A stretch of 64,000 nt of DNA from Sphingorhabdus sp. Alg231-15 (GTDB lineage: Bacteria; Pseudomonadota; Alphaproteobacteria; Sphingomonadales; Sphingomonadaceae). A program made the translations under genes and the position numbers. Under the pieces are notes generated by a model. The model was not told where the DNA came from. It saw only the letters and a list, made by a program, of their open reading frames with translations, and ran no database searches. Below, in pieces: positions 11,303-41,388 of the stretch. The stretch is from the NCBI RefSeq assembly GCF_900149705.1, contig NZ_LT703001.1, positions 3,404,001 through 3,468,000 of the forward strand, written 5' to 3'. How positions within the stretch are numbered: position 1 is the first letter of the stretch; the number at the start of each line of letters is the position of its first letter.

Positions 11303-12304
11303 TTATCCTACCCCTCCAACCCCCAAAGCCATTCCCGCTTCCCTGATCCGTTTCGCCTCAGCGCCATCATTCTTGAACGCTGCCAGCCCGTCGGTCAGTG
11401 CTTTTTTCGCTTTCGCGGTTTGACCCAATTGCATGCGGCTGCGCATCAGCATGATCCAGCCATTCGCGTCATTGGGGTTGGATTGCAGCCGTTTGTCGAG
11501 GCCATCCACCATATTGGCGATCATGGCTTCCTGCTGGCCTGCGGGTAAGGCGGCAGCTTCCTGCATCTGCTGACGGCTGGGGCCGGGAATGGCGGCGGTC
11601 GCTACCTGAGGGCCGTCCGTGGATATGCCGCCTGTCGGAGCGGCCGGCGCCACCTTGGCAAGGCGCCCCGCAACATCGATATCTTCATTTGCAGCCACTT
11701 GTCCGATCACCCGGCGAATATCTTCGGCATAGGGCGCGTCTGCGGGCGTGTCTTCGAGCAACGCAAACCAGTCATTAATCGCGCCCTGATGATCGCCTGC
11801 AATATCCTTTTGCACCGCGAGGAAATAGCGCGCACGCGGATCACTTCTGTCGAGAGCGAGCGCTTTTCTGAAAGCATCTGCTGCATCCGGCGGCACTTGC
11901 TGACCATTGCTCGACATCACCAAGGCCTCGCCGAGCATGGACCAATATTCGGGATTCTTGGGATCGAGCGTTGTCGCGCGTTTCATCGCTGTGGCGGATT
12001 CGGCAAATTTCTGGGTCTCGAAATAGCTCCAGCCCAGCATTCGCCAGCTTTCGGCATCCTTGGGATCATCCTGCAATTTTTTCTCAAGACCTGCGATCAC
12101 TTCATCGACACTGGGCGCCTGTTCTGTTGCTCCAGCGGCGGTGTCTGTACCCGTGCTGCTGACCGTATTGTCGTTTTCCATGGTGCGGTACACCTGAACG
12201 CCAACGGCACTAATTGCCAGAACAGCCGCAGATATCAGCGCGATGCGGCTGATGTTGCCACCCGTCTTTTTGGCAGGCTCATCGGTTTTGACTGGCTCGC
12301 TCAT
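11303..12304 (-). CDS. Membrane-anchored TPR protein, CcmI-like
   Basis: A 333-residue protein with one N-terminal transmembrane helix (ISRIALISAAVLAISAVGVQVY, about residues 19-40) and tetratricopeptide repeats in two blocks: DDPKDAESWRMLGWSYFETQKFAESATAMKRA-type repeats at about 75-180 and a C-terminal NPNDANGWIMLMRSRMQLGQTAKAKKAL repeat. The architecture resembles the periplasmic part of CcmI, the apocytochrome c chaperone of cytochrome maturation, but no other ccm gene is adjacent. It is divergent from the redox operon with its multihaem cytochrome, which makes a cytochrome-related role attractive but unproven. Confidence 0.72.
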   Translation of the reverse strand: MSEPVKTDEPAKKTGGNISRIALISAAVLAISAVGVQVYRTMENDNTVSSTGTDTAAGATEQAPSVDEVIAGLEKKLQDDPKDAESWRMLGWSYFETQKFAESATAMKRATTLDPKNPEYWSMLGEALVMSSNGQQVPPDAADAFRKALALDRSDPRARYFLAVQKDIAGDHQGAINDWFALLEDTPADAPYAEDIRRVIGQVAANEDIDVAGRLAKVAPAAPTGGISTDGPQVATAAIPGPSRQQMQEAAALPAGQQEAMIANMVDGLDKRLQSNPNDANGWIMLMRSRMQLGQTAKAKKALTDGLAAFKNDGAEAKRIREAGMALGVGGVG

Positions 12305-12578: not shown

Positions 12579-15029
12579 GTGGCAGAAAAGTATCGAGTTG
12601 TGATCGTGGGGTCTGGCCCAGCGGGCATGAGTGCTGCTGGCCGCGCCGCCCAGTTAAAGCTGAAACATGTGCTGCTGGAAAAGACCGACCATCTTTCCGA
12701 TACCATCTACAAATATCAAAAGGGCAAGCATGTCATGGCGACGCCGAGCCAGCTGGTGCTGCGTTCGGACATGGATTTTGACGCGGGCAAGCGCGAAGCC
12801 ATTCTGGAAATCTGGGACAAGCAGACCGAGGCTTGCGAGGTCAATGTCCAATTTAATGCCGAGCCGGTGAAGATTGAAGGTGAGGAAGGAAACTTCACCA
12901 TCACATTGAAAAACGGCGATAAAGTTATGACTGAAACCATAGTCATGGCTATCGGGACGCAGGGAAACCCCAACCTGATGCGCTGTCCGGGTGGAGACAA
13001 TAAGCTGGTGCAGTATCAGCTGGATGATCCCGGCGAATATTATGACGAGCATATCACCGTGATCGGTTCTGGTGATGCGGGGATCGAGAATGCACTCGGT
13101 CTGGCGGCAGATGCGGCGCAGAATAATATCGTTACCATTCTCAATCGCTCGGCAGAATTTGCTCGCGCGAAAAAGGCCAATGTGAAGCTGCTGATGGAAG
13201 CGGGTGAGCAGGGTAAGGTCATGGTCCGCAACGAGACAACACCGGCTGAAGTCAAAGATGGTGAACTGGTGCTCGAAACGCGCGACGGGCAGGAAACAAT
13301 TCCCTGCAACCGCATCATTGCACGGATGGGTTCCGCTCCGCCGCGCAAATTTGTCGAGGAATGCGGCATCGAATTCACCAGCGAGGACCGGGAGGCTTAT
13401 CCCAAGCTGACGCCTGCCTTTGAAAGCACTAAAAAGGGCATCTATGTTATCGGCGCGCTGGCTGGCTATCCGCTGATCAAACACTGCATGAATCAGGGCT
13501 ATGATGTCATTGAATTTATCAACGGCAATGACGAATTGAAGCCAGCGGACGAGCCTATTCTTGAGAAGAAATTTGCGAGCCTGCCCGGTGGCAAATCAGT
13601 GGACGAATGGCTTGAGTTCTTCCGTGAGAAGGTGACGATCCTTAACGATCTTTCGCCCTTGCAGATGCGTGAGTTCATGCTCGACAGTGAACCGATTGCC
13701 TATCGCAAGGGCGAGACAATTTTTGAACGCAATGATCCAGGCTCTTCGCTGTTCACTATCGCCAAGGGTTCGGTGCTGGTCGAGATTGACCCCAATGACA
13801 GTTCGAAAGTCATCCCGATTGAGGAAGGTTCGATCTTTGGCGAAGTCGGCCTGATTTCGGGCCGTCGCCGCGGCGCAACGATTAACGCCGCCGAAGATAT
13901 GATCGCGATTGAAGTGTCGCGCACGGCAGCGTTGAAATTGCAAGCGTCGGTGCCGGCAGCGAAACGTGCGATCACGCGGATATCGACGGAACGGCAATTG
14001 CTGCAAATGTTCGGCTCTGGCCTGACCAAGGAAGATATTGCCGAGGCGGTTGAGACCAGCGAGATTATGAATGTTCGCGCCGGTGAAGCGATTATCAGCG
14101 AAGGCGAAGACGGCAACGATATTTATGTGATCCGTGTCGGATCGATGGTTGTCGAGAAGGAAATTGGCGGCAAGCCGGTATTCCTATCCTATCTGCCGGC
14201 GGGCTCCTATGTTGGCGAGATGACCCTGATTGCTGGCGGTATGCGCACCGCAACGGTAAAGGCCGCGATCAAGTCCGAAGTGATCAAGATACAGGGCGAT
14301 GCGTTTAAAAAAGTGCTCGATGCCCATCCTGATCTTCTCCGTCGCGCCAAGAAAGATATGGCCGCACGGCAGGATATCAACGCCTTTGTCGAGGCCAAGA
14401 AAGACAGCTTTTCCGGCGTTGTCGACATGTATTCGGGCGTCGCGAATTTTCTTGTCGACAATGGCATTGGCGAAGCAACCGACGTGCTGCTGATCGACGA
14501 GAATCTGTGCGTCGGCTGTGACAATTGCGAGAAGGCCTGTGCGGACAGCCACGAAGGTTTGTCCCGTCTCGACCGCGAAGCGGGCAGGACCTATGCGCAT
14601 CTGCATGTCCCGACCAGCTGCCGCCATTGCGAACATCCGCACTGCATGTCCGATTGCCCGCCTGACGCTATCCACCGCGGTCCAGACGGTGAGGTGTTTA
14701 TTGACGACACCTGTATCGGTTGCGGCAATTGCCAGCGCTACTGCCCCTATGGTGTGATCCGCATGGACAAGGTGCCGCCGAAGAAGCCGGGTCTGCTCAG
14801 CTGGCTGTTCTTTGGCAAGGGCCCGGGGCCCGGCGAGCCCGACAAGCAGTGGACCGCGGAGAATAGCGATCCCGATGTCGAGAAGCCGAAAAAGGCGATT
14901 AAATGCGATATGTGCGCGGGGATCAAGGGTGGCCCAGCCTGTGTCCGGGCCTGTCCCACCGGTGCTGCTATCCGTGTAGCGCCCGAGGAATTCCTCACCG
15001 TCGCCAAACTTGAGCAGGAGGACGCATAA
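12579..15029 (+). CDS. Fused flavoprotein - two cyclic-nucleotide-binding domains - four [4Fe-4S] ferredoxin protein
   Basis: An 816-residue cytoplasmic fusion. Residues 1-340 are a YpdA/thioredoxin-reductase-like flavoprotein with a FAD loop VIVGSGPAGMSAAGRA and a second nucleotide loop VIGSGDAGIENALG. Two CNB domains follow (about 366-455 and 492-590). Both keep the phosphate-binding cassette Glu and Arg: FGEVGLISGRRRGATI and VGEMTLIAGGMRTATV. Residues 644 to about 795 carry four Cys groups in the manner of DmsB/HybA electron-transfer subunits (CVGCDNCEKAC, CRHCEHPHCMSDC, CIGCGNCQRYC, CDMC-N-CVRAC). It starts at GTG after AAAGGGGGAA. A [NAD(P)H] to FAD to Fe-S path controlled by cyclic nucleotides is inferred, not known. 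It overlaps the next gene by one base. Confidence 0.9.
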   Translation: MAEKYRVVIVGSGPAGMSAAGRAAQLKLKHVLLEKTDHLSDTIYKYQKGKHVMATPSQLVLRSDMDFDAGKREAILEIWDKQTEACEVNVQFNAEPVKIEGEEGNFTITLKNGDKVMTETIVMAIGTQGNPNLMRCPGGDNKLVQYQLDDPGEYYDEHITVIGSGDAGIENALGLAADAAQNNIVTILNRSAEFARAKKANVKLLMEAGEQGKVMVRNETTPAEVKDGELVLETRDGQETIPCNRIIARMGSAPPRKFVEECGIEFTSEDREAYPKLTPAFESTKKGIYVIGALAGYPLIKHCMNQGYDVIEFINGNDELKPADEPILEKKFASLPGGKSVDEWLEFFREKVTILNDLSPLQMREFMLDSEPIAYRKGETIFERNDPGSSLFTIAKGSVLVEIDPNDSSKVIPIEEGSIFGEVGLISGRRRGATINAAEDMIAIEVSRTAALKLQASVPAAKRAITRISTERQLLQMFGSGLTKEDIAEAVETSEIMNVRAGEAIISEGEDGNDIYVIRVGSMVVEKEIGGKPVFLSYLPAGSYVGEMTLIAGGMRTATVKAAIKSEVIKIQGDAFKKVLDAHPDLLRRAKKDMAARQDINAFVEAKKDSFSGVVDMYSGVANFLVDNGIGEATDVLLIDENLCVGCDNCEKACADSHEGLSRLDREAGRTYAHLHVPTSCRHCEHPHCMSDCPPDAIHRGPDGEVFIDDTCIGCGNCQRYCPYGVIRMDKVPPKKPGLLSWLFFGKGPGPGEPDKQWTAENSDPDVEKPKKAIKCDMCAGIKGGPACVRACPTGAAIRVAPEEFLTVAKLEQEDA

Positions 15030-15910
15030 TGGCATCTGTTCCTGTTCCCGGTGGCGTCGCAAAAAAGAAGGTCGCCATGCATGACGGCTTTCTCAAACAT
15101 GCTGGCTATAAGTGGCTGAAAATCGCCTCTTTCATCATGCTGGTTTCGATTGTCAGCTATCTCTTCATCGACGTTTCCCCACGCCACAATGGCGGCAGCT
15201 GGTATGGCTATACGCTCGGCACTATCGGCGCGGGACTAATCCTGTGGCTGACGATGCTCGGCGTTCGCAAACGCGCAATGACGGCGGGTAAATGGTCGCT
15301 GAAAGCATGGACATCGGCTCATATTTATCTCGGCCTCAGTCTGATAGTCATCGGTACGTTGCACACCGGATTTCAATTTGGCTGGAATATCCATACAGCG
15401 GCTTATGCTTTCATGATGATCGTTATCATCTCCGGTATCGTCGGCATTTATTTCTATGCGACCATCCCGCAATCCCTGTCCAATAATCGCGACGAGATGA
15501 CCGAGACGCAGATGCTGGAAAACCTGCGATCACTCGATCGGCAATTGCATGAAGCGGCACAGCCATTATCGGCAGAACATGCCGCTTTGGTGCTGCAATC
15601 TCTGGAACAAGACCCCTTTGGTGGTGGTTTTCTCAAGCGGGTATCCGGAAAATATCCCAACTGTGCTACCCGCGCTGCGCAGGCTGATTTGCGACGAGAG
15701 CGCGCTTATCAGCCTCGCATGGGCGGGGATGACCCGCTCGACAAGGTGGATGCGTTGCTGGAGAAGAAGGAGGCAACGCTCGCCCGCGTTCGCCGCCATC
15801 TCAGGCTGAAAGCGCTACTGCAGGTTTGGCTATTCATTCATGTGCCAATGACTTTCGCCCTGATTGCGTCGCTGTCGGCGCATATCATTAGCGTTTTCTT
15901 TTACTGGTAG
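15029..15910 (+). CDS. Cytochrome-b-like membrane protein of the redox operon
   Basis: A 293-residue membrane protein. Hydrophobic segments lie at about 30-50, 62-80, 98-115, 125-148 and 265-292, with a long soluble stretch (about 155-260) between the fourth and fifth. Histidines within or beside membrane segments (AHIYLGL, GTLHTGF, WNIHTAAY, FIHVPMTF, SAHIIS) are spaced as in di-haem b-type cytochromes. The neighbours agree: a four-cluster Fe-S protein before it and a decahaem cytochrome after it. I infer a quinone- or haem-mediated transmembrane electron conduit. I cannot place it in a named family with certainty. Confidence 0.75.
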   Translation: MASVPVPGGVAKKKVAMHDGFLKHAGYKWLKIASFIMLVSIVSYLFIDVSPRHNGGSWYGYTLGTIGAGLILWLTMLGVRKRAMTAGKWSLKAWTSAHIYLGLSLIVIGTLHTGFQFGWNIHTAAYAFMMIVIISGIVGIYFYATIPQSLSNNRDEMTETQMLENLRSLDRQLHEAAQPLSAEHAALVLQSLEQDPFGGGFLKRVSGKYPNCATRAAQADLRRERAYQPRMGGDDPLDKVDALLEKKEATLARVRRHLRLKALLQVWLFIHVPMTFALIASLSAHIISVFFYW

Positions 15911-15925
15911 GCGGGAGATAGACTG

Positions 15926-17794
15926 ATGACCTTTATCGTTCGCCAAATTGCTGTCACTGCCGATGGCCGCGAGATTATCCGCGCCAATCCGTTCGAAGAG
16001 TCGCAGATCGGGATCGGCCGAAACACAGAAAATGCGATCCATCTGCCGGACCTTGCCGTCAATCCTGATCATGCCGTCATACGTCAATTGGATGATGGCC
16101 GGATAGAGATTGAGAGCATTTCAGGTCAGAAATTTTCCGTCGACGGCCGCCAGAATATGGCGGCGACTATCGATCCCGCAAAAGGTGCGGAGTTGGGTTT
16201 TGGCGGTCATGTGATTGTCGTCAGCGAGGAGGAGGGAGGCGTTACTCTTACCGTCAAGCGGGTCGAGGCTCTGTCCGATTCCGCTGAAGACCGGGAAGAA
16301 GGCGCGCTCTATACATTAAAGGGCCTTCTGCCTGGAAAAAGGATCAGCGCGTGGGGCTTTATCGCGCTGGTGCTGGCGGCATTTCTGGTTTGGCCCATCT
16401 ACACCTGGACAACCTATCGCGGAGTCGAGGAACGGCCCGAAGGTTTCCACGCTGACACGATGTGGACATCCGGCGCGCTCAGCGAAGCGCATCACAGCCT
16501 CGAAGGCGATTGTCAGGCCTGCCATGTCGATGCATTTGTTACGGTTACGGACAAGACCTGCTTGAATTGCCATGAAGATGACGCGCATGATCATGCCAAG
16601 AAAGACCGTCTGCGCACGGCCATGGGTGAGCCTGAAGGGTTTGAAAAAGTCGGTGCGGCCTTTGCCTCGGCATTCAACAAACCTCCGGGCCGGTGTGTCG
16701 AATGTCACACCGAGCATGAGGGCGCCGGTGCTATGCAGCCTACTGCGCAAAAATTCTGCGCGGATTGTCACGAAGGAATGGACGGGCGGTTGACCGATAC
16801 GAAACTTGAAAATGCATCAGATTTCGGGATTTCGCATCCGCAGTTTCGTCCTGCCTTGCTGGTCGAGCCAGGTGGCAAAAACCCGCCCCGCAAGCGGGTT
16901 TCACTGGATGAAAAGCCGACCGAATATAATGGTCTGAAATTTCCGCACGATGTGCATATGTCGAAAACCGGCGGAGTTGCGCAAATGGGGCGACGGCTGT
17001 CGGCGAAATTTGGATTTGGCGATTCGTTAGCCTGTGCCGACTGCCATACACCCGATGCCAATGGCGTACGCTTCGAGCCAGTCGACATGAAAGAGGATTG
17101 TGCGATGTGCCACAGCCTCGCTTTTGAAGAGATCGGCAACACGGTACGGACTTTGCGCCATGGCGAGCCCGACATGGTGCGCGCCGACCTGCGTGCGTAT
17201 TATCGTTCGACCGGTCCTTCGCGGCCGATCAATCTTGGCGGTATGAAACGGCGGCGTCCTGGCGCTGAAAATGACAGCCGGGTGGCAAGCGATTATGCCC
17301 GCGCCGTCCAGTTTCGGCCAAGCCGGGCAAATCTCGCTATTCAGCAGGTTTTTTCCCGCGGCGGTGCTTGTTTTGACTGCCATGGTGTAACCCCGCCGAC
17401 CGCTCGGGGGCGTGTGGACTATGGGATCAAGCCAGTAACCCAGACCGACCGCTATATGCACAAAGGCTGGTTCAGCCATGAAGCGCACACGCAAGAGGAT
17501 TGCACATCATGCCATGCGGCAACAACCTCTGACAATGCCCGGGACCTGTTATTGCCCGGCATCAAGACTTGCCGTGAATGTCATGGCGGTGAATTCCAGA
17601 ATACATCGGATGTGCCATCGACATGCGCTATGTGTCATGATTATCATGCCGATGATGGTGCGCCCTGGTTGATCAAGGAGCAACAGAAGGACAAGCGCAA
17701 AAAGCCCGATACGGCGGTGAACGACAATGAGGCGCTGAAGCCATCGGACAAGCTGAAAGTAAAAACAAGAAAGCAGAAAATTGCCAGTCGCTAG
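15926..17794 (+). CDS. FHA domain - TM - decahaem c-type cytochrome fusion
   Basis: A 622-residue protein. The N-terminal cytoplasmic FHA domain has IGIGRNTENAIHLPDLAVNPDHAVI (FHA core: GR, N, then the H of the loop, about residues 24-52). A membrane helix at about 140-160 (WGFIALVLAAFLVWPIYTW) leads to a periplasmic part with ten CxxCH haem sites from residue 196 to 571: CQACH, CLNCH, CVECH, CADCH twice, CAMCH twice, CFDCH, CTSCH, CRECH. FHA domains bind phosphothreonine, so a kinase-signalling input to a multihaem cytochrome is implied. It starts 16 bases after the cytochrome-b-like gene with GGCGGGAGA as ribosome site. Confidence 0.93.
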   Translation: MTFIVRQIAVTADGREIIRANPFEESQIGIGRNTENAIHLPDLAVNPDHAVIRQLDDGRIEIESISGQKFSVDGRQNMAATIDPAKGAELGFGGHVIVVSEEEGGVTLTVKRVEALSDSAEDREEGALYTLKGLLPGKRISAWGFIALVLAAFLVWPIYTWTTYRGVEERPEGFHADTMWTSGALSEAHHSLEGDCQACHVDAFVTVTDKTCLNCHEDDAHDHAKKDRLRTAMGEPEGFEKVGAAFASAFNKPPGRCVECHTEHEGAGAMQPTAQKFCADCHEGMDGRLTDTKLENASDFGISHPQFRPALLVEPGGKNPPRKRVSLDEKPTEYNGLKFPHDVHMSKTGGVAQMGRRLSAKFGFGDSLACADCHTPDANGVRFEPVDMKEDCAMCHSLAFEEIGNTVRTLRHGEPDMVRADLRAYYRSTGPSRPINLGGMKRRRPGAENDSRVASDYARAVQFRPSRANLAIQQVFSRGGACFDCHGVTPPTARGRVDYGIKPVTQTDRYMHKGWFSHEAHTQEDCTSCHAATTSDNARDLLLPGIKTCRECHGGEFQNTSDVPSTCAMCHDYHADDGAPWLIKEQQKDKRKKPDTAVNDNEALKPSDKLKVKTRKQKIASR

Positions 17795-17821
17795 AAGTGA
17801 CGTAAGAGAGGGGAAGCGCCC

Positions 17822-18670
17822 ATGCTTTTGGCGCAGGTAACGGATATTCATCTGGGCTTTGATCCGGATAATCCGTCCGAATTTAACCGCAAGCGGCTCG
17901 ATCAGGCGCTGAAAGTCTTGTGCGAAATGACGCCGCGACCCGATGCATTGCTCGCCACGGGTGATCTGGTCGATCGCGGTGACCAGGAGAGTTATCAGAG
18001 GCTCGAAGAGGCATTTGCTGACCTACCCTTTCCGGTTCATATGTGTCTGGGCAATCATGATCTGAGAGCACCGTTTCAAAAGCAATTCCCCGATGTTCCT
18101 ATGGCCGATGGCTTTGTTCAATATGAGATTGATGAGGGCCCTCTGCGCCTGCTGATTCTCGACACGCTGGAAGAGGGACGGCATGGCGGTGCGTTTTGTG
18201 ATGTTCGTGCAAAATGGCTGGCCGACAGGCTGTCTGAGAAGCAGGACAAGCCGACATTGCTGATTTTGCATCATCCGCCCGTGGAATCCGGTATCGCCTG
18301 GATGAACACCGACCCTCGCGAACCCTGGGTTTCAACTCTGGCGGATACGATTGCCGGACATGATCAGGTCAAGGGTATGATTACCGGCCATTTACACCGC
18401 AATATTTCGACTTCGTTTGAAGGAACCAGCCTCTCGATTTGCGCCTCCACCGCGCCGCAGGTTGCGTTTGATCTCGAACCGATAGATCCGGAAAATCCCG
18501 ACGGTCGCAACATGATTGTCGCGGATCCACCGGCCATCGCACTGCATTGGTGGAACGGGAAACAACTGGTCAGCCATTTCGAGACCGCAGAAGAGCATGT
18601 GATGCTCGCGCGTTATGACGAGAATCTGCAACCTCTGGTGCGGGCGTTGCTGGCGGAGCGGCCGGAATAG
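17822..18670 (+). CDS. Class III cyclic-nucleotide-phosphodiesterase-like metallophosphoesterase (CpdA type)
   Basis: A 282-residue calcineurin-like enzyme with the complete di-metal set: TDIHLG (D-x-H), GDLVDRGD, CLGNHD, LHHPP and TGHLHR. Length, start motif LAQVTDIHL and motif spacing fit the CpdA/class III cNMP phosphodiesterases. It lies 27 bases after the decahaem cytochrome gene with a GAGGGGAAG ribosome site and on the same strand, so it is probably the last gene of the operon. A cAMP-degrading enzyme beside a flavoprotein with two cNMP-binding domains makes a signalling link likely. Other phosphodiester substrates are possible for this superfamily. Confidence 0.85.
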   Translation: MLLAQVTDIHLGFDPDNPSEFNRKRLDQALKVLCEMTPRPDALLATGDLVDRGDQESYQRLEEAFADLPFPVHMCLGNHDLRAPFQKQFPDVPMADGFVQYEIDEGPLRLLILDTLEEGRHGGAFCDVRAKWLADRLSEKQDKPTLLILHHPPVESGIAWMNTDPREPWVSTLADTIAGHDQVKGMITGHLHRNISTSFEGTSLSICASTAPQVAFDLEPIDPENPDGRNMIVADPPAIALHWWNGKQLVSHFETAEEHVMLARYDENLQPLVRALLAERPE

Positions 18671-38326: not shown

Positions 38327-39523
38327 TTAATTAGGGCTTTGTTCGGGAGGCACTGTCCCATTATCCTCGAAAGCGCGCTCATTTTCATTGTCAAAAGCAT
38401 CGCTAAACTCGCTTCTGAATGCCGGTCTGGGCGGGTCGCGCGGTACATCCAGATTACCAGCTGCAATGGCCCGCAGAATTGCAAGCCGTTCTCTGACTGC
38501 GGTGGCAACACAGGCGGTGTCGGGACAGCGGTCCCGCGTTTCCGTGCGCCATGCGCGTTGTTGGCGTTGAAGCCTAGGCGCATTGGGACCGGCTGCAGAC
38601 ATTGCATCTTTGTAGACAGACGACAAAGTCCGGTCGAGCTTGGCTAATTGCGGAGTGTTACAGATCAAAAACTCAACCCGCTGCGACGCCTTGGTACAAT
38701 CAAAACTGGGTCCGTCGGGCGGAAGGGGTTTGGGCACGACCGGTTTGGCTTCCACTTCCGGTTCTGGTTCAACTACTTCATCGTCAGCGTCATCGACTGG
38801 CTCTACGGGAAGTTCAGCGGGTTCCGTTGGCGGCAATGGATTCTCGCTTCCCGATGCGTTCCAGATCAGAAAAACAGCGATTGTTGCGACCGTCAGGGCT
38901 GCAAGCGCTGCGATCAGCGCCCAATTGGTTTTTGGTTTTTCCGGCTCCCATTCGTCTTCGTATTCTTCATGGATTGGTTCTGGCTCCGGATCGGCAACCG
39001 CTTCCGCAGGCTCGGGTTCCTCAGGTTGATCGGATATGGTCCCTGCGTCAGTCTCATCCGCGTTGTCTTTGCCACTATGTTCAATCAGGTCCTCGACCGT
39101 CATGGTTTTCTGGACGGTGCCAGCCAACTGATGCGCTTTGGCGGCGACCCGTTCGATAGTGCTTTCGCGTTGTTCCAGCCAGTCAATCCATTGGAAGCTG
39201 GCAAGATGATAGGCGAGTTCATCAGGGGCGAGTTCCTCCAAACGGACAGGAATAATCGCTTTTCGGGACGAATCCGCGAGGATCAATTCGCGCTTTACAT
39301 GAGGGCTTTTGTCGGACTTGCTGCAAAATAGTAGCAATGTCGCGCAGCTTTCGTCAATCGCGCGCTTGATCGCCATGTCAAAGGCCTCGCTGGGCTCGAC
39401 ATCACGCGGTGCCAGCCAGCAGGTAACGCCATATTTGGCGAGCGATTTTTCGAGTTCCAGCGCAACCGGCAATTTGCTGGAATGATGGCTGATAAACAGC
39501 TGTGTCGCTGGTTCTTGCCCCAT
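38327..39523 (-). CDS. TIR domain - acidic linker - TM - LprI-like domain protein
   Basis: A 398-residue protein. The N-terminal TIR domain (about 7-130) begins QLFISHHSSKLPVALELEKSL, and Glu79 in HVKREL sits where NAD-cleaving TIRs keep their catalytic Glu. An acidic Pro/Glu linker (about 150-198) leads to a transmembrane helix (WALIAALAALTVATIAVFLIW, about 201-221). A second acidic linker leads to a Cys-containing LprI/DUF1311-like domain (FDCTKASQRVEFLICNTPQL then QRQQRAWRTETRDRC, about 275-355) outside the membrane. A periplasmic sensor joined to a cytoplasmic TIR is inferred. It is divergent from the SLOG-cyclase gene, 113 bp away. Confidence 0.88.
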   Translation of the reverse strand: MGQEPATQLFISHHSSKLPVALELEKSLAKYGVTCWLAPRDVEPSEAFDMAIKRAIDESCATLLLFCSKSDKSPHVKRELILADSSRKAIIPVRLEELAPDELAYHLASFQWIDWLEQRESTIERVAAKAHQLAGTVQKTMTVEDLIEHSGKDNADETDAGTISDQPEEPEPAEAVADPEPEPIHEEYEDEWEPEKPKTNWALIAALAALTVATIAVFLIWNASGSENPLPPTEPAELPVEPVDDADDEVVEPEPEVEAKPVVPKPLPPDGPSFDCTKASQRVEFLICNTPQLAKLDRTLSSVYKDAMSAAGPNAPRLQRQQRAWRTETRDRCPDTACVATAVRERLAILRAIAAGNLDVPRDPPRPAFRSEFSDAFDNENERAFEDNGTVPPEQSPN

Positions 39524-39636
39524 ATCTTGCCCCGTTTCCCTGTGATGCGATCTCAGTCACAACTTACCCACTATAGCCAAGTTAGTGACTAAATCCATAA
39601 TTTGCGGCAAATGTAAAACTTATCTAGGGAAGTGGG

Positions 39637-41388
39637 ATGGGGCTTAGCGTAGATCAGACGAAAAATGCGATTGATCAGGGCAATTTGCTATTGGCTTATG
39701 ATCTTGCGCGTGTTGCGATCGAGGCCGGTGATGAGTCTGCGGAGTTACGCCATCTGCTGGTTTTAACTCTAGCACGAATGGGCGACGGCCAGCAGGCGAT
39801 GGAGCTTTATGAGCTTTATGGATTGCACAGCTCCGCCAATGCCCATCATCGCTCGTTGGCTGCGCGTATTCTAAAGGATGCCGCACTGGCGCTGCCTGAC
39901 GGAGAAGAACGTGACGAGGCGCTAGCCGCTGCTTACCGGGCTTATGCAGATATTTATGAAGATAGCGGCGACGCTTATCCCGGCATAAATGCGGCCAGCC
40001 TGGCACTGTTAAGCGGGGACAAGAAAAAGGCCGAGGAGCTGGCGTCTTCGATCATTGCTCTCAACCCGATTTCAAACCCCAAAGACTATTATGATGCCGC
40101 AACACTGGCTGAAGCCCTGTTGATCAATGGGCGAGCGGATGAAGCCGCAGCGGCGCTTTACATGGCAAGTCAGTTGCCTGATGCGAATAGCGGCGCCAAG
40201 TCCAGCACCAGCCGGCAATTGTTGCTGCTTGCCAGGACATTGGATCTGGATGCCGACAAGCAAAATGCATTGCTAGTCCCAATATCACCGCCCACGGTGA
40301 TTCATTATTGCGGTCACATGTTTCTTGAAGACGCGACGGTTGAGGCATCTTTGCGGCAACGGATCGATGATTTTCTGGACAATCAGAATGTCGATTTCGT
40401 CTATGGTTCGTTGGCCGCAGGTGCGGATATATTGGTAGCGGAAGCAATAATTGCGCGGGGAGGGGAGCTGCATGTCACTCTTCCCTTTGTGAAAGACGAT
40501 TTTATCGCACAGTCGGTAATGCCCGCCGGGGAAGGATGGCTCAATAGGTTTGAGCAATGCCTGAACGCGGCCACGAGCGTACATTTTGCGACTGAGATGA
40601 ATTATGTCGGAGATCAAGCGCAATTTGGTTATGCTAGCAAGGTGGCGATGGGCATGGCTACTTTACGTGCACAATATCTCCGGAGCTCTCCCCAGCAGCT
40701 GGCAATATGGGATGGGATTGCGGCCACCGGTCCCGCAGGCACCGGCGCAGATGTGCAGGCTTGGAAAGGCTATGGGGGCGAGACCACAATCATCGCTCCG
40801 GATGATGTTGATCGCAGTCTGAGCTGGTCAGCACAACCAGCAACCGATGAACTGACCCGCGGGTTGGCAGCCTTCCTATTCACTGATTTTCCCGGTTTTT
40901 CGAAATTGGCTGAAGCCGCGCTCCCGGCTTTTTGGCAAGGGGTGATGGGGCGGATGGCGGCCGTGCTGGACAGCTATCCTGACAAAGTGCTGGCAAAAAA
41001 TAGCTGGGGCGATGCGGTGTTGGCGATCAGTCTGGATGCCCCAGTCGCTGCTGAAATTGCCCTGGCACTGCAAGAAACGCTGCAGGATTTTGATTATAGT
41101 CTGCTTGGTCTGTCAGAGAGCAGCGGAATGCGGATCGGTGTGCACTATGGCCCCGCCTATCAAACCAAGGATCTGATCACCGGCAATACCACCTTTTATG
41201 GAACCGAAGTATCTCGCGCCGCGCGGATTGAGCCGGTTACTCCGCCGGGAGCGGTCTTTGTTACAGAGCCTTTTGCTGCAATCCTTGTGCTCGAGGCATC
41301 TGATCGGTTCAAATGCCGCTATGTCGGTAATGTAGAATTTGCCAAAGGCTACGGGACATATCCGATCTATCGTCTGATGGCGGTTTAG
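39637..41388 (+). CDS. TPR-like - SLOG-like - class III nucleotide cyclase-domain protein
   Basis: A 583-residue cytoplasmic protein. Residues 1-210 are helical TPR-like repeats. Residues about 220-390 look like a SLOG-type nucleotide-binding Rossmann domain (VIHYCGHMF, then VYGSLAAGADILVAEAII and HVTLPFVKDDFI). Residues about 408-583 are a class III cyclase domain. The two metal Asps are present (D417 in FTDFPGF, D459 in SWGDAVLAI), and Arg530 in VSRAAR matches the transition-state Arg. The purine-specifying Lys position is Asn455 and the usual Asn of N-x3-R is Ser526. Activity or base specificity may therefore be unusual. ATG follows AGGGAAGTGGG. Confidence 0.82.
   Translation: MGLSVDQTKNAIDQGNLLLAYDLARVAIEAGDESAELRHLLVLTLARMGDGQQAMELYELYGLHSSANAHHRSLAARILKDAALALPDGEERDEALAAAYRAYADIYEDSGDAYPGINAASLALLSGDKKKAEELASSIIALNPISNPKDYYDAATLAEALLINGRADEAAAALYMASQLPDANSGAKSSTSRQLLLLARTLDLDADKQNALLVPISPPTVIHYCGHMFLEDATVEASLRQRIDDFLDNQNVDFVYGSLAAGADILVAEAIIARGGELHVTLPFVKDDFIAQSVMPAGEGWLNRFEQCLNAATSVHFATEMNYVGDQAQFGYASKVAMGMATLRAQYLRSSPQQLAIWDGIAATGPAGTGADVQAWKGYGGETTIIAPDDVDRSLSWSAQPATDELTRGLAAFLFTDFPGFSKLAEAALPAFWQGVMGRMAAVLDSYPDKVLAKNSWGDAVLAISLDAPVAAEIALALQETLQDFDYSLLGLSESSGMRIGVHYGPAYQTKDLITGNTTFYGTEVSRAARIEPVTPPGAVFVTEPFAAILVLEASDRFKCRYVGNVEFAKGYGTYPIYRLMAV

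Follow-up and report, generated by a model that had tools for sequence, protein, structure and literature searches.

A conserved flavoprotein–cytochrome module of Sphingorhabdus sp. Alg231-15 as the predicted inner-membrane half of an electron conduit, possibly gated by cyclic nucleotides

The DNA analysed here is a 64,000-nucleotide stretch of the Sphingorhabdus sp. Alg231-15 genome (contig NZ_LT703001.1, positions 3,404,001 to 3,468,000; hereafter the window), in which four consecutive plus-strand genes, P1 to P4, encode a flavin reductase fused to cyclic-nucleotide-binding (CNB) and ferredoxin domains, a cytochrome b561-like membrane protein, a decahaem cytochrome and a phosphodiesterase-like protein. 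P1 and P2 overlap by 1 base, and gaps of 15 and 27 bases separate P2 from P3 and P3 from P4. The open reading frames (ORFs) and the profile matches confirmed the original prediction of four adjacent same-strand genes with these domains and spacings of 1–27 bases. Its domain list was correct as far as it went; an FHA-like domain in P3 and a linked CHASE2 cyclase located elsewhere in the genome had been overlooked. The features of the locus, with lengths in amino acids (aa), are the following:

12579..15029, plus strand: P1, a pyridine-nucleotide reductase binding flavin adenine dinucleotide (FAD) and NAD(P), with tandem CNB domains and a four-cluster ferredoxin, 816 aa, GTG start
12591..13499, plus strand: FAD/NAD(P) reductase domain of P1 (aa 5-307), with GxGxxG at aa 11-16 and 163-168
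13686..14372, plus strand: tandem CNB domains of P1 (about aa 370-598), with Glu422/Arg431 and Glu547/Arg556 at the phosphate-binding positions
14487..14969, plus strand: four [4Fe-4S] ferredoxin module of P1 (aa 637-797), with 16 invariant Cys
15029..15910, plus strand: P2, a cytochrome b561-superfamily-like protein with about five transmembrane (TM) segments, 293 aa
15926..17794, plus strand: P3, with an N-terminal FHA-like domain, one TM segment and a ten-haem domain, 622 aa
16013..16153, plus strand: FHA-like domain of P3 (aa 30-76), with Gly-Arg kept and the phospho-contact Ser lost
17822..18670, plus strand: P4, a class III cyclic-nucleotide phosphodiesterase-like metallophosphoesterase, 282 aa

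In Pfam, P1 matched Pyr_redox_2/3 (E 4e-27 / 6e-30), two cNMP_binding stretches (4e-30) and Fer4 modules, and the CNB family (PF00027) scored 103.9 bits over the two stretches against a cut-off of 27.5. Conservation was followed in residue tables composed of the window plus 115 of 115 loci (L071-L185) for P1 and the window plus 109, 105 and 74 loci for P2, P3 and P4, respectively, after matches covering less than 80% of the query had been excluded for the latter three and L001, the window itself, had been dropped before counting. Across the 116 P1 rows, which span 43-96% identity to the protein of the window, the phosphate-site residues of both CNB domains were retained almost without exception (E422, R431 and R556 in 116/116 and E547 in 115/116, with Ala in L110), which bears out the original claim that the phosphate-binding Glu and Arg are intact in both domains. 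The tandem aligns end to end with that of the regulatory subunit RI-alpha of protein kinase A (PKA), with Glu and Arg in register. The 16 ferredoxin cysteines forming the four [4Fe-4S] sites were invariant in all 116 rows, and the best PDB match of this module was formate hydrogenlyase subunit 2 (E 2e-19). The flavin domain fits by its sequence the two-Rossmann FAD/NAD(P) fold and is YpdA-like. An identity as a thioredoxin or bacillithiol-disulphide reductase was considered and rejected, as the NCBIfam YpdA model reached 121.8 bits against a cut-off of 339.9 and no disulphide site was found in the flavin domain, where none of the five cysteines is invariant or part of a CxxC in the 116 rows. 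Arg190 was kept in 112/116 rows, which by analogy may suggest the use of NADPH.

P2 matched the cytochrome b561 profile weakly (E 0.0034, 17.6 bits, below the cut-off of 30.1), and 43 of its 46 aligned relatives matched the b561 family at E <= 0.1, the best at 3e-7. Five histidines (His98, 112, 122, 271 and 285) were invariant in 110/110 rows, and among them H98/H112 and H271/H285, each 14 residues apart, are candidate haem-ligand pairs; this spacing is known from dihaem cytochromes b. By the positive-inside rule the long TM4-TM5 loop would be cytoplasmic, an argument carried by the TM2-TM3 loop (5 K+R vs 0 D+E), the TM4-TM5 loop being nearly balanced (19 K+R vs 17 D+E), and the haem pair would therefore span the membrane. 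P3 contains ten CXXCH motifs with one hydrophobic segment ahead of the haems. Its FHA-like domain is degenerate (Pfam E 0.0013, 19.6 bits, just below the 20.7 cut-off), with the GR motif in 105/106 rows, the His in 94/106 and a variable residue at the Ser position. Because the phospho-contact Ser is not kept, docking is a more likely function than signalling; a role as a phosphothreonine reader paired with a clustered kinase was rejected, since this Ser is lost and no kinase was found among the ten proteins scanned around the cyclase of the same genome.

At E <= 1e-50, a P1 homologue was present in 52/149 genomes sampled from the family Sphingomonadaceae, in 26/289 sampled from the class (three of these being family genomes) and in 15/398 sampled from the phylum, where five of the 15 lie outside the class; with 52/149 family genomes holding a homologue, the P1 fusion is not a chance event. 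For synteny, loci L071-L150 and L182-L185 were taken as the family side, the former being the best 80 of 580 relatives and thus biased to close relatives, and L151-L181 as the others, and only loci whose contig continues beyond P1 for 1.2, 2.5 or 4 kb or more were counted. P2 followed P1 in 80/80 family-side loci and 27/31 others, and P3 was in place in 78/78 and 26/29, respectively. The misses were L160, L169, L170 and L180: L169 carries P3 upstream of P1 on the same strand, and in L170 P1 lies between c5 and the tetrahaem gene c13, two cytochrome genes described below. A single open frame joins P1 to P2 in two genomes of a genus outside the class (L179:3052-6420, 1123 aa; L181:8350-11703, 1118 aa), and the fusion proteins keep all five P2 histidines. 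P1, P2 and P3, here called the trio, are thus a conserved inner-membrane module, and its synteny together with the fusion in two genomes supports the earlier proposal that electrons travel from a donor in the cytoplasm to the periplasm. That proposal had also turned on whether P1 homologues lack the cytochrome genes and the phosphodiesterase; P2 and P3 stay with P1, and P4 does so on the family side only (71/74 loci with room vs 0/27 others).

From these counts P4 appears to be a sphingomonad lineage-specific addition. It matched Metallophos in Pfam (4e-18) and belongs to the calcineurin-like group of GpdQ, Rv0805, CpdA and SpdA. In NCBIfam it scored 140.5 bits with SpdA, an enzyme acting on 2',3'-cyclic nucleoside monophosphates (cut-off 400), and 85.8 bits with CpdA (cut-off 225); since it is nearer to the former and below both equivalog cut-offs, the label 'CpdA-type' originally given to it was too specific. 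The metal-ligand residues of its D-x-H, GD, GNHD, HH and GHxH motifs were conserved in 100% of 75 rows, and no paralogue was found in its own genome at E <= 0.001. The family-side loci without P4 in place were L121, L133 and L183. Additionally, a CHASE2 cyclase in genome G072 is followed by a P4 homologue that the end of the fetched stretch truncates, and L174, outside the family side, has one about 7.5 kb from its P1 locus.

A second set of genes, c13-c7-c6-c5, constitutes a putative outer-membrane module and lies in the same genome about 2 Mb from the P1 locus, at 1.36 Mb, with c5 at 1.366 Mb. The c13 protein is a four-haem, cytochrome c554-like protein, and c7 is HbpS-like, with a lipobox recognized by eye in this genome. 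The c6 protein, of about 620 aa, ends in Tyr/Phe in 35/35 members longer than 590 aa, of which 32/35 have no predicted TM helix, and c5, of about 1360 aa, is a decahaem-LVIVD cytochrome with LVIVD repeats and ten CXXCH in 40/41 members longer than 1200 aa. The c6 and c5 genes are adjacent, so that a multihaem cytochrome sits beside a barrel-like candidate. Assignment of c5 and c6 to known porin-cytochrome families was rejected: no Pfam match, to MtrB/PioB or otherwise, was obtained for the two c6 proteins scanned, and single-sequence PDB searches returned no match for c6 or c5, including to solved porin-cytochromes.

The two modules are associated both in position and in distribution. In many sphingomonads c13-c7-c6-c5 is convergent with P4-P3-P2-P1; c5 was within the fetched stretch in 43/80 loci L071-L150 and 12/31 loci L151-L181, and c7 followed by c6 came after the trio on the same strand in 12 of the latter 31. 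The public annotation of pMSHV, a plasmid of Sphingobium herbicidovorans MH, reads 'cyclic nucleotide-binding domain-containing protein' for P1, 'hypothetical protein' for P2, 'cytochrome c3 family protein' for P3 and 'metallophosphoesterase' for P4. Downstream, the genes at the places expected of c5 and c6 are a 'multiheme c-type cytochrome' and a 'hypothetical protein', and those at the places of c7 and c13 are a 'heme-binding protein' and a 'cytochrome c family protein'. Among the family genomes c5 occurred in 53/149, namely in 52/52 with P1 and 1/97 without it, the exception, G022, being a 67% complete assembly of 420 contigs; in the class, all 20 genomes with c5 were among the 26 with P1. 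In 12 of the 52 family genomes over 70 kb of one contig separates the P1 and c5 loci, and in another 12 they are on different contigs (partly through assembly breaks), so their co-occurrence cannot be put down to linkage alone. A tetrahaem c13, a pentahaem cytochrome and a c130 protein (with a Phe end in L168) were also observed beside the trio in genomes without c5 (L166:847-5806, L168:13419-18162). The outer-membrane half may be exchangeable. The original prediction, which ended in the periplasm, was therefore incomplete, as the electrons probably go on beyond it.

A further partner is a class III cyclase. The one linked to the outer module in the genome of the window (G000, 1.34 Mb) lies 24 kb from c5, scores 52.4 bits with PF00211 against a cut-off of 21.9 and has the metal Asp, the Lys and the Asn/Arg residues; all 11 cyclases more than 40% identical to it, itself included, keep them. 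CHASE2 domains were detected in this and three other sphingomonad cyclases (4/4 scanned). In 15 genomes fetched more widely (the genome of the window and 14 picked for a nearby cyclase), the cyclase, often with a secreted-looking partner of ~250 aa, is located before or near c13; in the genome of the window, a TPR-CHAT gene precedes the cyclase and its partner, and about seven other ORFs separate these from c13. Also seen beside this cyclase were, in addition to the TPR-CHAT protein, a POTRA protein adjoining a 3005-aa protein, by appearance a pair of the two-partner secretion type (L195:12579-15683, L195:18640-19998, L196:447-9461), and on pMSHV a ShlB-type gene is likewise near P1. The ORF at 39637-41388 of the window, 28 kb from P1 and counted as the cyclase nearest to it in G000, was set aside as the partner cyclase because its PF00211 match is weak (E 1e-7) and it is unlike the linked CHASE2 proteins. 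In the same region (38327-41388), a minus-strand protein that looks TIR-like by eye adjoins this plus-strand protein with a weak cyclase-like C-terminal domain.

A class III cyclase domain was present in 52/52 family genomes with P1 versus 12/97 without it (Fisher p 7e-29, kinship ignored), one of the 12 being G022, and in 41/52 it was no more than 40 kb away from P1 or c5, compared with about 5.3 expected from a simple random-placement estimate. In the class, the corresponding counts were 26/26 (three of them family genomes already counted) versus 163/263. Seven further genomes with P1, five of them outside the class, all had a cyclase (7/7). In four of the seven (G434, G666, G763 and G770) it shares the contig of P1 at a distance of no more than 40 kb; the one in G434 is a FIST-cyclase that lies upstream of a P1 copy on the opposite strand and is separated from it by a single predicted ORF. 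Outside the class, a protein with a FIST domain and a class III cyclase domain was observed at L180:3472-6747, upstream of a P1 copy without P2/P3 neighbours, in a genome with a second P1 copy that has the trio (L178). Among the genomes listed, G034, G036, G078, G079 and G103 lack P1 and have neither c5 nor a cyclase, and their genera (g35, g37, g79, g80 and g15) each include a member with P1. The link to cyclic nucleotides proposed originally is thus strengthened by the near-invariant Glu/Arg pairs and by the co-occurrence and proximity of the cyclase.

Two neighbours of the four genes deserve mention. Divergent from P1 is the following gene:

11303..12304, minus strand: TPR protein, CcmI/CcmH-like (cluster c4)

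The Ccm name, with its bearing on cytochrome c maturation, is a tentative label; the c4 cluster is present in 60/80 loci L071-L150 and in only 3 loci numbered 151 or higher. Just downstream of P4 (18820-19380), there is a small secreted-looking protein with a C-terminus that appears PEP-CTERM-like by eye.

The best explanation of these data, to which we give a probability of roughly 0.6, is that an electron conduit fed by NAD(P)H and gated by a cyclic nucleotide spans the envelope and has the trio as its inner-membrane half; the cyclase would make this nucleotide and P4 would remove it. On comparative sequence grounds, a putative conduit across the envelope is well supported, and the same data suggest cyclic-nucleotide gating. 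NAD(P)H would reduce the FAD of P1, and electrons would pass from this flavin through the four [4Fe-4S] clusters to the haem pair of P2, across the membrane to the ten haems of P3, and from there through tetrahaem c13 to the outer module (lipoprotein c7, barrel-like c6 and decahaem c5) and an acceptor outside the cell. The PKA-R-like CNB tandem, sited between the flavin and the Fe-S modules, would act as the gate: a nucleotide from the CHASE2 class III cyclase, of which the CHASE2 part may look at the envelope, would bind there and change transfer from the flavin to the clusters, and P4 would be the off-switch. The domain architecture, conserved motifs, gene order, P1-P2 fusion and joint occurrence of P1, c5 and the cyclase are read directly from sequence; the direction of the electrons, the ligation of the haems, the siting of c5 and c6 in the outer membrane, the nucleotide concerned and the gating are predictions from it.

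What speaks most for a role of cyclic nucleotides is that both phosphate sites have been kept almost perfectly in deeply diverged proteins, together with the link to the cyclase. Several observations weigh on the other side, the strongest being that P4 is out of place in all 27 loci outside the family side and thus outside the operon beyond sphingomonads, and that cyclases are common in Alphaproteobacteria, which makes the class-level contrast weaker. In 11/52 family genomes no cyclase lies within 40 kb, loci L151-L181 contain a single cyclase match beside the trio or P1 (L180), and G140 (g73) carries cyclases but neither P1 nor c5, although its genus includes a P1-bearing member. P1 stands without adjoining P2/P3 in L160 and L180. 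Six class genomes with P1 have no c5; in G172 a contig edge comes right after c7, G207 and G252 have another module (c129-c130) made up of c13, a pentahaem cytochrome and a c130 protein ending in Phe, and for G199, G267 and G403 neither applies. The barrel nature of c6 is drawn from its C-terminal Tyr/Phe and the few predicted TM helices, the Glu/Arg pairs of CNB domains can persist for other ends, and genome size and kinship confound all co-occurrence counts.

Some of these points would suit a different arrangement, in which the conduit is real, the CNB domains have a structural role or a different ligand, and P4 and the cyclase act through transcription of the same genes, for instance by CRP-type regulators. 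The position of P4 outside the operon beyond the sphingomonad side (0/27), the cyclases of 163/263 alphaproteobacterial genomes without P1 and the other places in this genome that match the CNB part of P1 agree with such control, whereas both Glu/Arg pairs being near-invariant at 43-96% identity and the tight co-occurrence and proximity of the cyclase within the family speak against it, and we consider it unlikely. Electron flow in reverse is a distinctly improbable reading: the cytochromes would oxidise an extracellular or periplasmic donor, and P1 would make NAD(P)H or feed quinone with the cyclic nucleotide as a switch. All parts could run either way, as direction cannot be read from sequence, and P2 is similar to the b561 cytochromes, a group with many quinone-linked members; however, to form NAD(P)H with electrons of a donor at haem level would take an energy input for which no subunit was seen, and the hosts are mostly heterotrophs.

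Very improbable, in our judgement, is a non-respiratory redox system of the periplasm or outer membrane that would handle metals or haem, whether to reduce and take up iron or haem or to mature cytochromes. The HbpS-like c7 and the CcmI-like c4 in 60/80 loci L071-L150 would fit it, but two decahaem cytochromes, one tetrahaem cytochrome and a likely barrel would exceed the needs of a maturation factor, and the trio is kept in the loci numbered 151 or higher, of which only 3 have c4.

If the NAD(P)H-fed, gated conduit is correct, the entry enzyme of a conduit would carry an allosteric cyclic-nucleotide switch in the sphingomonads, a large and mostly aerobic group, and CHASE2 cyclases would gain a concrete output; the analysis also points to an outer-membrane cytochrome module without a family name in the libraries searched. 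Only tentatively, at a little under even odds, would we go on to propose a second-messenger-gated respiratory conduit of a new porin-cytochrome type that leads from the inside to the outside, with a PKA-like sensor in its entry enzyme, its own envelope-sensing CHASE2 cyclase and phosphodiesterase, and rapid control without transcription. No description of the combination, and no report of such a conduit in sphingomonads, was found in the open-licence full-text literature, a search outside of which most subscription papers fall; in the matching passages of PMC8705573 and PMC8622721, the haem word is confined to the reference lists.

When compared to known systems, the single parts are of known kinds. 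Like S. meliloti SpdA, E. coli CpdA, Rv0805 and GpdQ, P4 belongs to the same superfamily with its metal-ligand motifs intact, and unlike SpdA and CpdA it stays below the NCBIfam cut-off of both. P1 shares its CNB tandem with the PKA regulatory subunit, in contrast to which there is no kinase and the tandem is fused inside a redox enzyme. The Mycobacterium acetyltransferase Pat and the Bdellovibrio EAL enzyme Bd1971, which both surfaced in the searches, also have a CNB domain in cis with an enzyme, whereas the output of P1 would be electron transfer. As in formate dehydrogenase-N and DMSO-reductase modules, a 16-Cys ferredoxin stands beside a cytochrome b561-like protein with invariant histidines; in contrast to these, P1 joins its ferredoxin to CNB domains and a flavin reductase in one protein, the partner is a decahaem protein and no molybdoenzyme gene is part of the four-gene set. 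Known porin-cytochrome conduits include MtrCAB, PioAB/MtoAB and Geobacter Omb-Oma-Omc, and control of the trans-envelope conduits described so far is known to work through gene expression and the supply of donor and acceptor. The present system resembles the porin-cytochrome conduits in having an inner-membrane haem protein, a periplasmic multihaem carrier and a barrel-like protein adjoining a decahaem cytochrome, and it differs in that c6 had no sequence match in Pfam or PDB and c5 none in PDB, that c5 carries LVIVD repeats and that a flavoprotein of the NAD(P)H type, equipped with CNB domains, takes the place of the quinol-fed CymA/NapC in the inner half. The combination would be a variant of trans-envelope multihaem conduits and possibly a new, second-messenger-gated kind.

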